Assembly: GCF_900101395.1 (NCBI RefSeq)
Contig: NZ_FMZO01000007.1
Span: forward strand, 124,001-188,000
Origin: Niabella drilacis
Lineage (GTDB): Bacteria; Bacteroidota; Bacteroidia; Chitinophagales; Chitinophagaceae
DNA: 64,000 bases
Reading direction: 5' to 3'
Shown: piece after piece, positions 59,346-62,495 of the stretch
How the letters are laid out: each line of letters opens with the position of its first letter
Numbering within the stretch: the stretch's first letter is position 1
Program-made: the position numbers and the translations under genes
Notes under the pieces: generated by a model
The model's input: the letters and a program-made list of their open reading frames with translations, nothing else
Told to the model about the DNA's origin: nothing
Databases searched by the model: none

Positions 59346-59944
59346 TCAGTAAGCACCATGTATTTCATTGATGAAGATCTGCTTATGCAGGGTTTCTTTC
59401 ATATTGACCCAAACTACAATGCCGGATAAAAATGTAACAATGCCCGCGATGTGTACTGCCCATACCAGCCTCTGTAGACCGGCTATGAGGCCGGAGAGCA
59501 CAGCTCCCACGGCATACCCGATATCCCGCCAGAAGCGATACACGCCTAAGGAGGACGCCCGCCAGGAAGGATGCGCCGCATCACTTACGGCCGCCAGCAA
59601 AGCGGGGTAAACCATGGCCGTGCCCATACCCAGGAGCACCGATCCAACGATACCGGACGTGAAGGGACTAAAGAGTTCCAGGCCGATAACAATATGCCCC
59701 AATACCTGCACAAACATGCCCCATACGATCAACGGCTCCCTGCCGATCTTATCTGCCAGGGGGGCTGTAATGATTTGTCCAACACCCCAAACAACCGGGT
59801 ATATCGCCTTGATCCATCCCACGCCTTCGAGGCCTACACCCGCGGATATAAAAAGCAATCCACCAGCATATTTACCAGTACCAGTACCGTAAATTGCTGC
59901 CCGTTTTTTTGAGTCCCAGTGCAGTGCCGGTCATGGATGATCAT
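59346..59944 (-). pseudogene. MFS transporter remnant (internal deletion and frameshift)
   Basis: The N-terminal piece (start 59944) reads M-I-I-H-D-R-H-C-T-G-T-Q-K-N-G-Q-Q-F-T-V-L-V-L-V-N-M-L-V, then leaves frame and stops at 59834-59836. A second frame, open across the same region, carries G-G-L-L-F-I-S-A-G-V-G-L-E-G-V-G-W-I-K-A-I-Y-P, the conserved start of transmembrane helices 7-12 of a major-facilitator protein. So about 200 residues covering most of the first half appear to be lost, with the join out of frame near the N-M-L-V codons. The promoter and operator upstream look intact. The intact family member may have exported a sulfur- or metal-related compound, but that is inference. Confidence 0.75.
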
Positions 59945-59963: not shown

Positions 59964-60007
59964 CAAAGATAACAAAAATTTTACTATTCAATAGATTTAT
60001 TGAATAG
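59964..60007 (-). promoter_or_regulatory. Promoter and ArsR-type operator of the MFS remnant
   Basis: On the minus strand the -7 box is TATCTTTG (59964-59971), a perfect TAnnTTTG. Twelve bp further upstream is the inverted repeat CTATTCAAT-N6-ATTGAATAG (59984-60007), perfect at 9+9. The operator covers the -33 position. The start codon is 20 bp from the -7 box. Confidence 0.7.
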
Positions 60008-60355
60008 TTATTATTGCAGATGCCCGGTATTTGCCCCGGCAACGTACTATACCGGAGGTCGGGAGCCTGAACCCGGCGAGGTGCCCGCACAGTGGTTTTT
60101 GGTTGGGCTATCAAAAGCTTAGTGTTTTGGTGATCTCCGGGGCTGTTGAATGGCCCTTACGGGTAATGAAACAGGTTCGGCATGACCATCGTATAATTGA
60201 TCTTCAGGAGGTAGCGTGATCGGGATCCGGCTTTGGCAACCTGTTCGAGTACCTGATGAGCGTGATCCCATAGAACCCTGAACAACTCCGGGCCTTCGGC
60301 GCAGGACGCCAATGCGATTTTTGCTATATCATTTTTATAAATGACAACCGGTGTA
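60008..60355. other. Intergenic region with a possible coding remnant
   Basis: No intact gene. On the minus strand the codons from about 60360 to 60157 form a stop-free stretch of 67 codons with protein-like composition but no plausible start (first ATG near the end), so it may be a decayed fragment or chance. Confidence 0.35.
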
Positions 60356-61024
60356 TTAACTTACCTGCGCTACGGGGTACCCTTTCTGCCTCCATTCAGG
60401 AAACCCTTCTTCCATACGTGCGGCTTTGTATCCGTTTTCCTTTAGCAGGGCAACCGCCTCATCGGCATACACGCAGAAAGGCCCCCGGCAATAAGCCACG
60501 ATCAGCTTTCTTTTGGGCAGTTTTTTTAAATAAGCGGCAAGGCTTTCCAGCGGTACAGACAACGCCCGGTGTATATGCCCCCGGTTATATTCTTCTTCCG
60601 GACGTACATCCAGTATCACAGCCTGCTCTTTTTGGAGCAGCCGGGCCAGGGTTTCCGCATCGATCAGGTCCGTATCACGGCTCTTTCCTTTGCGGAAATC
60701 GCTGATCACTTTTGCAGCTTCTGCGTTGTGAGCAAGCCCCAGGTTGCGAAGCTCCACCCAGGTGTCAAAAACGTTTTCACCGGCCAGGGAATAGTGGATG
60801 AAATTTCCATTCCGGGCCACCGTTACCAGCCGGGCATTTTTTAGTGTTTGCAGGTGCTGCGAGGCATTGGCGACCGACATTCCTGTGTAAGCAGCGATCT
60901 GTTCTACCGAAAAAGGCCCCTGGGCCAGCAGGTCAATGACCTCCAGCCGGTGCGGATTGGCCAGGGCTTTAACCAGCTTTGCTAATTCGGTATACACCTT
61001 ATCTTTAAATAGCCGTTTATTCAT
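60356..61024 (-). CDS. ArsR family regulator fused to rhodanese domain
   Basis: This 222-aa protein has a winged-helix ArsR domain (1-95; L-V-K-A-L-A-N-P-H-R-L-E-V-I-D-L-L, recognition region S-V-A-N-A-S-Q-H-L-Q-T-L) and a C-terminal rhodanese domain (about 120-218; V-I-L-D-V-R-P-E-E-E-Y, C-R-G-P-F-C in the active loop). The only cysteines are the two of C-R-G-P-F-C; the ArsR half has no metal-binding Cys box. Sensing of persulfide or similar sulfur species by the rhodanese half is therefore plausible. It is the last gene of the operon starting at 62014, overlapping the TlpA gene by 8 bp. Confidence 0.93.
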   Translation of the reverse strand: MNKRLFKDKVYTELAKLVKALANPHRLEVIDLLAQGPFSVEQIAAYTGMSVANASQHLQTLKNARLVTVARNGNFIHYSLAGENVFDTWVELRNLGLAHNAEAAKVISDFRKGKSRDTDLIDAETLARLLQKEQAVILDVRPEEEYNRGHIHRALSVPLESLAAYLKKLPKRKLIVAYCRGPFCVYADEAVALLKENGYKAARMEEGFPEWRQKGYPVAQVS

Positions 61025-61577
61025 GTTTGCTATTGTTCAATGTTGCTGCTTTTATTGATCTGGGCTGTTCCCTCGTGGCGCCCAAACGGCGCTGTATAAG
61101 GTTTTCCAGCTCTTTTTCATGAAGATTAATGGCAATGATCTTGTTTTGTTCATCCACCAGTACATTAAAGGGCAGTTCTTCTATACCATAATCCTTTGCA
61201 ACCGGGCTTCTCCAGAATTTGAGGTCGCTGACCTGCACCCAGTTTATTTTAAGGCGATCCACTGTTTTTTTCCAGGTGCTTTTGTCTTTGTCAAGAGAAA
61301 CGCCAATGATTTCAAATTTCCCTTCTTTGACCTCAGGTGCAAATTTTTCGTACAGGGCTTTCAGTTGCGGTTGTTCCTTTACGCAGGGAGCGCACCAGGT
61401 GGCCCAAAAATCAATGAGCACCAACCGGCCTTTTAAAGAGGAAAGCGCAAACATACTTCCATCCATACGGGGTAGCGTAATTTCAGGGGCAATGCTGCCT
61501 GTTTTTAGCGGGGTACTTTGAGCAGCAGTAGTAACTGCAAAAAGAAGACTGATGAGCGTACAAAGGATCCGGTTCAT
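61017..61577 (-). CDS. TlpA-type thiol-disulfide oxidoreductase, periplasmic
   Basis: This 186-aa AhpC/TSA-redoxin-fold protein has a signal peptide (M-N-R-I-L-C-T-L-I-S...T-A-A-Q) and active site W-C-A-P-C in F-W-A-T-W-C-A-P-C. The I-E-E-L-P-F cis-Pro loop is retained. It reduces disulfides or persulfides in the periplasm. Its start overlaps the stop of the rhodanese-like gene (ATGA), and its stop overlaps the ArsR-rhodanese start, so the three are translated together. Confidence 0.92.
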   Translation of the reverse strand: MNRILCTLISLLFAVTTAAQSTPLKTGSIAPEITLPRMDGSMFALSSLKGRLVLIDFWATWCAPCVKEQPQLKALYEKFAPEVKEGKFEIIGVSLDKDKSTWKKTVDRLKINWVQVSDLKFWRSPVAKDYGIEELPFNVLVDEQNKIIAINLHEKELENLIQRRLGATREQPRSIKAATLNNSKHE

Positions 61578-62014
61578 TCATTATCATTTGTCGGATAATC
61601 TTTATCCAGCCAATCTGCCTTAATATTTTTGGGTATGTTAAGCAGCCGGGCCTTTTTAAATCCCATACCCGTCAGTGTCTTAAACGCAGGGCGAATATTG
61701 GGGCATTTATCAAAAGGACAGCAGCCGCAATAAATAATTACCTCCTTGTTCCTGGAAACGTTTTTGAGATAACTTTTTAGCTTAGCGAAGTGTTCCGGCT
61801 CATGAGCAGGCCCCATGTCAACAGATCCCCTGATAACAGCATCCGGTCCCACTGATAGAATAAGGATATTGCCCGTTTGTTTTTTATCGATCTGTTCGGC
61901 AAGTGCCCGCGGGGCGATCAATTGCTGTTCCTTCCAGGGCTCTTTTGCACTTTGTGCCACCAGGCCGCTTTTAAATAACAGGAGCAGGACTAACAAAAAA
62001 ACGGGATACTTCAT
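61574..62014 (-). CDS. Periplasmic rhodanese-like protein
   Basis: This 146-aa protein has a signal peptide (M-K-Y-P-V-F-L-L-V-L...L-V-A-Q). The body follows a rhodanese layout: A-L-A-E-Q-I-D-K-K-Q-T, G-S-V-D-M-G-P-A, and an active loop I-Y-C-G-C-C-P-F-D-K-C-P-N with four cysteines, more than usual. Start 62014 is supported by the promoter at 62029-62036; an ATG at 62041 would lie inside that promoter. It heads the operon with TlpA and ArsR-rhodanese. Confidence 0.82.
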   Translation of the reverse strand: MKYPVFLLVLLLLFKSGLVAQSAKEPWKEQQLIAPRALAEQIDKKQTGNILILSVGPDAVIRGSVDMGPAHEPEHFAKLKSYLKNVSRNKEVIIYCGCCPFDKCPNIRPAFKTLTGMGFKKARLLNIPKNIKADWLDKDYPTNDNE

Positions 62015-62028
62015 AATTGTTCTTTCCG

Positions 62029-62073
62029 TAAAGATACGCATTGATAACTGTTATTCAATGAAATCATTGAATA
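62029..62073 (-). promoter_or_regulatory. Promoter and ArsR-type operator of the rhodanese-TlpA-ArsR operon
   Basis: On the minus strand the -7-like box is TATCTTTA (62029-62036) and, 15 bp further upstream, TATTCAAT-N6-ATTGAATA (62052-62073), an 8+8 perfect inverted repeat. It is the same operator as that at 59984-60007 and lies 37 bp from the start at 62014, against 39 bp for the other. Confidence 0.7.
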
Positions 62074-62155: not shown

Positions 62156-62183
62156 TTTGGGATGGACCTTTATACTAAATTTG
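62156..62183 (+). promoter_or_regulatory. Promoter of the Cys-rich protein/TonB receptor pair
   Basis: TTTG (62156-62159), a 16-bp gap and TAAATTTG (62176-62183), a perfect TAnnTTTG match, precede the TTG start at 62190 by 6 bp. The spacing is a little short. If used, the transcript is nearly leaderless. Confidence 0.5.
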
Positions 62184-62189
62184 CGGATC

Positions 62190-62495
62190 TTGATAAAGTG
62201 CCTTGGGTATATATTGATCTTTTGGGTATTGTTCAGCAGCATGCTGCCTTGCTCCGTCCTGGATGGATGTGAGGACGAGCATACAATGGAGCAATCTTCT
62301 CGCCCGGAAAAGCACAATGATTGCAGCAACTGTTCGCCTTTTTCAATCTGTTCTGTATATCACGGTTGTGTGATCAACCCGGCAAACATCGGTTTAACAG
62401 TACCCGGGACGTATATCGTACAGGCTTATCCTGATTTTTATATCGGAACCCGGTCAGACTATCACGCCCGCCTGTTCCAGCCTCCCAGGGTTTAA
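62190..62495 (+). CDS. Small Cys-rich protein, DUF6660-like
   Basis: From TTG at 62190 the frame gives 101 residues: a hydrophobic leader (I-K-C-L-G-Y-I-L-I-F-W-V-L-F-S-S), then Cys-rich C-S-V-L-D-G-C-E-D-E-H, D-C-S-N-C-S-P-F-S-I-C, and a C-terminus ending L-F-Q-P-P-R-V. Similar small proteins commonly precede TonB receptors in metal-related Bacteroidota loci, and the W/F-Q-P-P ending matches. An ATG at 62241 would remove the leader. Longer frames reach back across the divergent promoter and are unlikely. It may bind a metal or redox partner; function is not known. Confidence 0.68.
   Translation: MIKCLGYILIFWVLFSSMLPCSVLDGCEDEHTMEQSSRPEKHNDCSNCSPFSICSVYHGCVINPANIGLTVPGTYIVQAYPDFYIGTRSDYHARLFQPPRV

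Follow-up and report, generated by a model that had tools for sequence, protein, structure and literature searches.

A palindrome shared by two promoters of Niabella drilacis is the probable operator of an ArsR-rhodanese regulator

Introduction

Which protein reads a perfect palindrome that stands at two promoters of Niabella drilacis, and which signal would release it? We addressed these questions in a stretch of 64,000 nucleotides (contig NZ_FMZO01000007.1, positions 124,001 to 188,000; hereafter the window), where one copy precedes an operon for a regulator that joins an ArsR domain to a rhodanese domain (ArsR-rhodanese). An original prediction, made from the letters of the sequence, had taken the palindrome for a functional operator of autoregulated repression. 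From the comparisons reported here, the palindrome is very probably the operator of ArsR-rhodanese, which would repress its own operon.

Results

Two exact sites in the host genome

The palindrome has the perfect 8-6-8 form TATTCAAT-N6-ATTGAATA, and it occurs twice in the window, as originally predicted. The letters of the + strand read TATTCAATAGATTTATTGAATA at 59985-60006 (operator 1) and TATTCAATGAAATCATTGAATA at 62052-62073 (operator 2). A genome scan for the 22-mer had been proposed as a check. In the host genome (45 contigs, 6,099,002 bases), the exact 16 specified bases were found only at these two positions, both at this locus and not at many unrelated promoters. When up to 2 mismatches were allowed, 8 places were found in the host genome compared with 3 for the reversed pattern. 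In the window alone, a limit of 3 mismatches gives 3 matches compared with 0.47 expected, a number that was reached in 3 of 100 shuffles, and the weight of the window evidence rests on the two exact matches. The six inexact sites of the host genome (L003-L008, 1-2 mismatches) have no adjoining sulfur genes, as judged by reading the open frames without a family scan. On this reading a larger regulon in the host genome was rejected.

Promoters and the operon behind operator 2

Both target units lie on the minus strand. From the sequence and the layout in relatives, operator 2 would control the promoter of an operon for a rhodanese-like protein, a TlpA-like protein and ArsR-rhodanese, and operator 1 the promoter of a former major facilitator superfamily (MFS) transporter gene. 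The -7 box assigned to operator 1 (TATCTTTG, 59964..59971) follows the end of the palindrome by 13 base pairs (bp); from the same end it is 40 bp to ATG 59944 and 50 bp to the next ATG, 59934. At operator 2, the -7 box (TATCTTTA, 62029..62036; one base off the strict TAnnTTTG) follows by 15 bp and ATG 62014 by 37 bp. The promoter consensus of Bacteroidota is TTTG, about 19 bp, TAnnTTTG. Bases 16-18 of each operator read TTG, and because this TTG stands 17 bp (operator 1) and 19 bp (operator 2) before the -7 box, both operators are predicted to cover the -33 region. The distances originally given, 12-15 bp to the -7 box and 37-39 bp to the start codon, are slightly off; the spacing at the two promoters, which had been called identical, is only similar.

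We compared this arrangement across 55 sites with at most 1 mismatch, taken from the related loci (see below) that are grouped as Bacteroidota by record label. On the gene side, 34 of the 55 are followed by a strict TAnnTTTG that starts 8-22 bp away, most commonly at 15 bp, compared with 2 of 55 on the opposite flank and 42 of 2750 shuffled flanks (Fisher p 9.9e-12). As a separate observation made by eye, the palindrome of three non-Bacteroidota loci (L071, L078, L079) seems to lie over the -10, and not the -33, of a sigma-70-like promoter.

The operon consists of three overlapping genes and ends with the ArsR-rhodanese gene, in agreement with the original prediction. The first gene (61574..62014, minus strand) encodes a Cys-rich rhodanese-like protein of 146 amino acids (CGCCPFDKCPN), read as secreted from its N-terminus; its Pfam rhodanese match (E 0.099) is below the cutoff. 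Its start was set at ATG 62014, because the -7 box falls inside the longer reading from 62041. The second gene (61017..61577, minus strand) encodes, by library match, a TlpA/ResA-like thioredoxin-fold protein of 186 amino acids with a WCAPC motif, and overlaps both neighbours (61574-61577 and 61017-61024). The third gene (60356..61024, minus strand) encodes the regulator of 222 amino acids, with matches to PF01022 (HTH_5, residues 23-68; 48.3 bits, cutoff 22), NF033788 (HTH_metalloreg; 85.1 bits, cutoff 55) and PF00581 (rhodanese, residues 123-213; 58 bits, cutoff 22.2). With a domain above the curated cutoff and a palindrome over the core promoter of its own operon, the predicted protein is a member of the ArsR/SmtB superfamily. 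Its rhodanese assignment is likewise a prediction, for which both the domain and the loop cysteine (C179-R-G-P-F-C184) are present. At E <= 1e-4 the protein matched 34 PDB sequences, and no match covers both domains; the best stretches lie in the ArsR or the rhodanese part.

On the opposite side of operator 2, an open frame of 112 codons, whose start is not fixed, lies at 62157-62492 on the plus strand, directly before a TonB-dependent-receptor-like gene (62553 onward). It matches DUF6660 with 26.8 bits (cutoff 27).

Co-occurrence of site and gene

The site and the gene were searched in a family sample of 195 genomes, where the gene was called at E <= 1e-20, and in a phylum sample of 395 genomes, where it was called at E <= 1e-40. 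The two samples overlap in some genomes, including that of the window. In the family sample, the gene was found in 6 genomes and the exact site in 7, with both in 5. In the phylum sample, 24 genomes carry the gene and 6 the exact site, and all 6 sites are in gene-positive genomes and adjoin the gene. The exact site was thus found in 5 of 6 gene-positive and 2 of 189 gene-negative genomes of the family (Fisher p 5.6e-8) and in 6 of 24 and 0 of 371 genomes of the phylum (Fisher p 2.7e-8), where the p values are a guide only because the genomes are related. The reversed pattern had no exact match in either sample.

The sixth gene-positive genome of the family (G048) has a site with 1 mismatch just 5' of the gene. 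In the five phylum genomes other than that of the window, the exact site stands 20-24 bp upstream of the gene. The best site within 250 bp upstream in the other 18 gene-positive phylum genomes has 1 mismatch (3 genomes), 2 (9), 3 (4) or 4 (2). Taken together, the co-occurrence in family and phylum, the site of G048 and the 34 of 55 -7 boxes support the idea of a functional autoregulatory operator.

Sites at related loci

We examined the best 80 of at least 576 relatives of the gene (81 loci with the window), some of which coincide with loci of the family sample. Across the whole loci, sites with 0, 1, 2 and 3 mismatches numbered 39, 22, 16 and 25, compared with 0, 0, 1 and 2 for the reversed control. 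When only the 300 bp before the regulator gene are considered, 27 of the 80 loci have a best site without mismatch, 15 one with 1, 14 one with 2, 6 one with 3 and 6 one with 4, and 12 have none. A site with at most 2 mismatches is thus found in 56 of 80, compared with 0 of 1480 control windows. These windows came from other parts of the same loci, not near the gene, with 20 draws for every locus that had room. At looser match, the control windows gave 5 of 1480 at 3 mismatches and 26 of 1480 at 4. Given the genome-wide rarity and the results for the reversed pattern and the control windows, we rejected chance palindromes as an explanation.

Ten of the loci that have no such site within 300 bp carry one with at most 1 mismatch farther off (L030, L031, L034, L038, L039, L042, L044, L045, L063, L104), for example ahead of the first gene of the operon or of the next unit. 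By record label, 16 of the 80 loci lie outside Bacteroidota; near the gene, 7 of them have a site within the limit of 2 mismatches and 9 do not. The seven belong to Actinobacteria, Acidobacteria, Chloroflexi and Paenibacillus; the labels of the 16 may be wrong, because most are metagenome bins, and the Paenibacillus record is a complete chromosome.

The symmetry of the site was examined in the 68 upstream sites (best site per gene, at most 4 mismatches, a selection that favours the pattern). Each pair of the core TCAA/TTGA is retained in 62 to 68 of the 68 sites. For the outer pair we counted T:A in 55, C:G in 8 and other combinations in 5; it is palindromic in 63 of 68, compared with 49.0 expected for independent halves. 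The outer base pair covaries, which fits a symmetric dimer site. At two loci (L069, L072), we also observed two palindromes (2-3 mismatches) 45 bp apart, 5' of the same regulator gene, which possibly act cooperatively.

The two-site layout, with an intact MFS gene, is kept in two other genera of the family. In Chitinophaga silvatica (G177/L022, the same contig as L030), a site with 1 mismatch is followed by genes for a rhodanese-like protein (144 amino acids), a TlpA protein (168 amino acids) and ArsR-rhodanese, then by an exact site and an MFS gene (415 amino acids). In G162/L024, an exact site precedes the rhodanese-like, TlpA and ArsR-rhodanese genes, and a second exact site precedes genes for a metallo-beta-lactamase (MBL)-rhodanese protein (367 amino acids) and an MFS protein (429 amino acids). 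A third relative (G143/L023) has an exact site with the three-gene operon, and no second site with at most 1 mismatch in 19 kb.

The broken gene behind operator 1

Operator 1 is a well-kept site before what the sequence marks as a broken gene, a point missed in the original prediction, which placed it before a start codon. The promoter and the site are present, and the gene behind them is not intact. The predicted MFS remnant (59346..59944, minus strand) corresponds to codons ~6-24 and ~255-413 of its relatives (about 411-433 amino acids) in two frames, with about 230 codons lost internally and a frame change. It was matched by 51 MFS queries, one of them the window's own; these details come from the 24 matches listed. 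In the host genome no other close MFS copy was found, the remaining matches having 24-25% identity, and we therefore rejected a second intact copy. A sulfide:quinone oxidoreductase of the type seen at related loci was rejected as well (a 30% match over 106 residues), and the host genome gave only partial matches (29-38%) to the MBL/rhodanese protein. With the second target reduced to a remnant, this genome likely retains the self-regulated operon as its only working target.

Cysteines and the sensing question

The only cysteines of the window's regulator are C179 and C184, both in the rhodanese loop. Cysteines were counted in 81 proteins (L093 is cut at an in-frame stop near its C-terminus), and the loop CRG[PR]xC was found in all 81. 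In their ArsR part, 62 of them lack cysteine, 15 have one, 3 have two and 1 has three. If sulfane sulfur is the signal, the rhodanese domain would have to contain the switch. We consider a sulfane-sulfur signal through the rhodanese loop about as likely as not.

Alternative explanations

Several points weigh against the operator and its proposed signal. The case rests on sequence, from which we infer binding and expression. A metal or another thiol-reactive compound may be the inducer, since RND-type efflux genes lie within six genes in 7 of 81 loci, and 19 of the 81 proteins have a cysteine in the ArsR part. Among the 80 loci, 24 have no site with at most 2 mismatches within 300 bp; 12 of the 24 have none even at 4 mismatches, and 14 have no site with at most 1 mismatch farther off in the locus. 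More distant relatives lie beyond the best 80. Finally, one genus (G051, G137) has the exact site without the gene (L027 9609-9630, L028 8843-8864), before a non-ArsR gene of 372 amino acids; this site may reflect chance or another regulator.

The strongest alternative accepts the binding and replaces sulfane sulfur as inducer by a metal, a metalloid or an oxidant, which we consider unlikely but worth keeping in mind. The match to HTH_metalloreg and the RND-type genes fit this explanation, and the two thiols of a rhodanese loop could take up soft metals or undergo oxidation; however, the 62 of 81 proteins without a cysteine in the ArsR part make classical thiolate metal sites there unlikely. 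The neighbours also speak for sulfur. Within six genes of the regulator, across the 81 loci, we found MFS genes in 54 (the remnant of the window included), DsrE-like genes in 16, sulfide:quinone-oxidoreductase-like flavoprotein genes in 16, cysteine desulfurase genes in 10, phosphorylase-superfamily genes in 10 and TlpA genes in 7. The commoner neighbours, apart from the MFS with its unassigned substrate, are thus sulfur genes (DsrE, oxidoreductase, desulfurase). The MFS, DsrE, oxidoreductase, desulfurase and TlpA neighbours lie nearly all on the strand of the regulator. Names were assigned by Pfam on representatives, with the oxidoreductase, desulfurase and RND labels being our reading of the sequence.

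A second alternative, that the palindrome is the operator of a different regulator which controls ArsR-rhodanese clusters, appears quite improbable to us. The exact site without the gene would fit it, as would the other regulator genes near some loci (ECF sigma factor in 5 of 81 loci, response regulator in 4, AraC-like in 3, by our own reading). Yet among the 30 largest clusters, those listed, no other regulator occurs in more than 5 of 81. In both genome samples the site also tends to be found where the gene is, and in loci of other phyla it again lies next to the ArsR-rhodanese gene. A terminator, a mobile-element repeat or the like, near promoters by chance, has almost no probability left. 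A repeat of this length could fold into a hairpin, but here the two halves are conserved around six variable central bases, the -7 box keeps to a constrained distance from the site, and the genome has two copies only, with 0 of 1480 control windows.

Discussion

Operator, promoter and gene are conserved together in sequence and position. From this conservation we infer the binding, the repression, the inducer and the C179/C184 switch of the following mechanism. A homodimer of ArsR-rhodanese would bind the palindrome through its winged-helix domain, cover the -33 element and block its own operon (rhodanese-like protein, TlpA-like thioredoxin, regulator). The dimer would also repress a second unit, the MFS transporter, preceded in some relatives by an MBL/rhodanese protein of persulfide-dioxygenase type. 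Sulfane sulfur, whether from persulfide, polysulfide or thiosulfate, would most likely load C179, and C184 may form a bridge; the dimer would then change shape and leave the DNA, and the sulfur-handling genes would be expressed.

A wider reading has about as much for it as against it, namely that these proteins form a widespread class of one-component repressors. Sulfane sulfur on the catalytic cysteine would be captured by the second cysteine of CRGPxC and the signal passed to a mostly cysteine-free ArsR domain, which reads a dedicated TATTCAAT-N6-ATTGAATA operator kept (at most 2 mismatches) from Bacteroidota to Acidobacteria, Actinobacteria, Chloroflexi and Paenibacillus.

For a type of regulator that we did not find described in the literature searched, this study proposes a concrete operator and a concrete regulon. 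The operator pattern can be used to find sulfur-stress genes, including the MFS transporter (unassigned substrate) of 54 of 81 loci.

Comparison with known systems

The best PDB match of the regulator is 2kko (residues 11-87, E 4.3e-15). We take 2kko, the N-terminal domain (also 3gw2), to be the Mycobacterium bovis ortholog of Mycobacterium tuberculosis Rv0324, which presumably carries a rhodanese domain. Rv0324 may be a known distant relative, a link suggested by the 2kko match. It has drawn attention in connection with bedaquiline tolerance and hypoxia, and the word rhodanese is absent from the available text of two papers (PMC9480834, PMC4916473). A study that sorted 168,163 ArsR sequences into clusters mentions rhodanese, in its available text, only for neighbouring genes (PMC10509353). 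In a literature search that reached few subscription papers, we came across neither an ArsR-rhodanese fusion nor this operator. The ArsR/SmtB-type regulator TsoR (NF045707) was the third-best NCBIfam match, covering residues 11-96 only, and membership was rejected (56.8 bits, cutoff 115).

The closest functional parallel is the group of ArsR-family persulfide-responsive repressors, SqrR of Rhodobacter capsulatus, YgaV of E. coli and BigR of Xylella and Agrobacterium. The window's regulator shares with them the ArsR fold, the half-site core ATTC/GAAT, a predicted operator over the promoter and predicted targets in sulfur handling, among them genes for rhodanese and sulfur/persulfide dioxygenase. 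BigR senses via Cys42 and Cys108 of its ArsR domain (PMC5823870), a tetrasulfide is formed between two cysteines in SqrR (PMC9995734) and a tetrasulfide also in YgaV (PMC9774250), and the deduced SqrR site is ATTC-N8-GAAT (PMC9774250). The window's operator has the same half-sites 12 apart (ATTC-N12-GAAT). The cysteine pair of the ArsR domain in SqrR, BigR and YgaV is absent from the window's protein, whose sole pair lies in the rhodanese domain, and its score with the NCBIfam BigR equivalog is 42.4 bits (cutoff 155). Because of this score, the absent ArsR cysteine pair and the different operator spacing, membership in the SqrR/BigR/YgaV group was rejected.

Taken together, our analysis suggests that the regulator is a variant of the persulfide-responsive ArsR repressors, one that we did not find described in the literature searched. 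It also suggests that sulfane-sulfur sensing has two placements in ArsR repressors, either in a cysteine pair of the DNA-binding domain (SqrR type) or in a fused sulfurtransferase. By the tests made, the regulator is not a member of the SqrR group, though it probably works like one.

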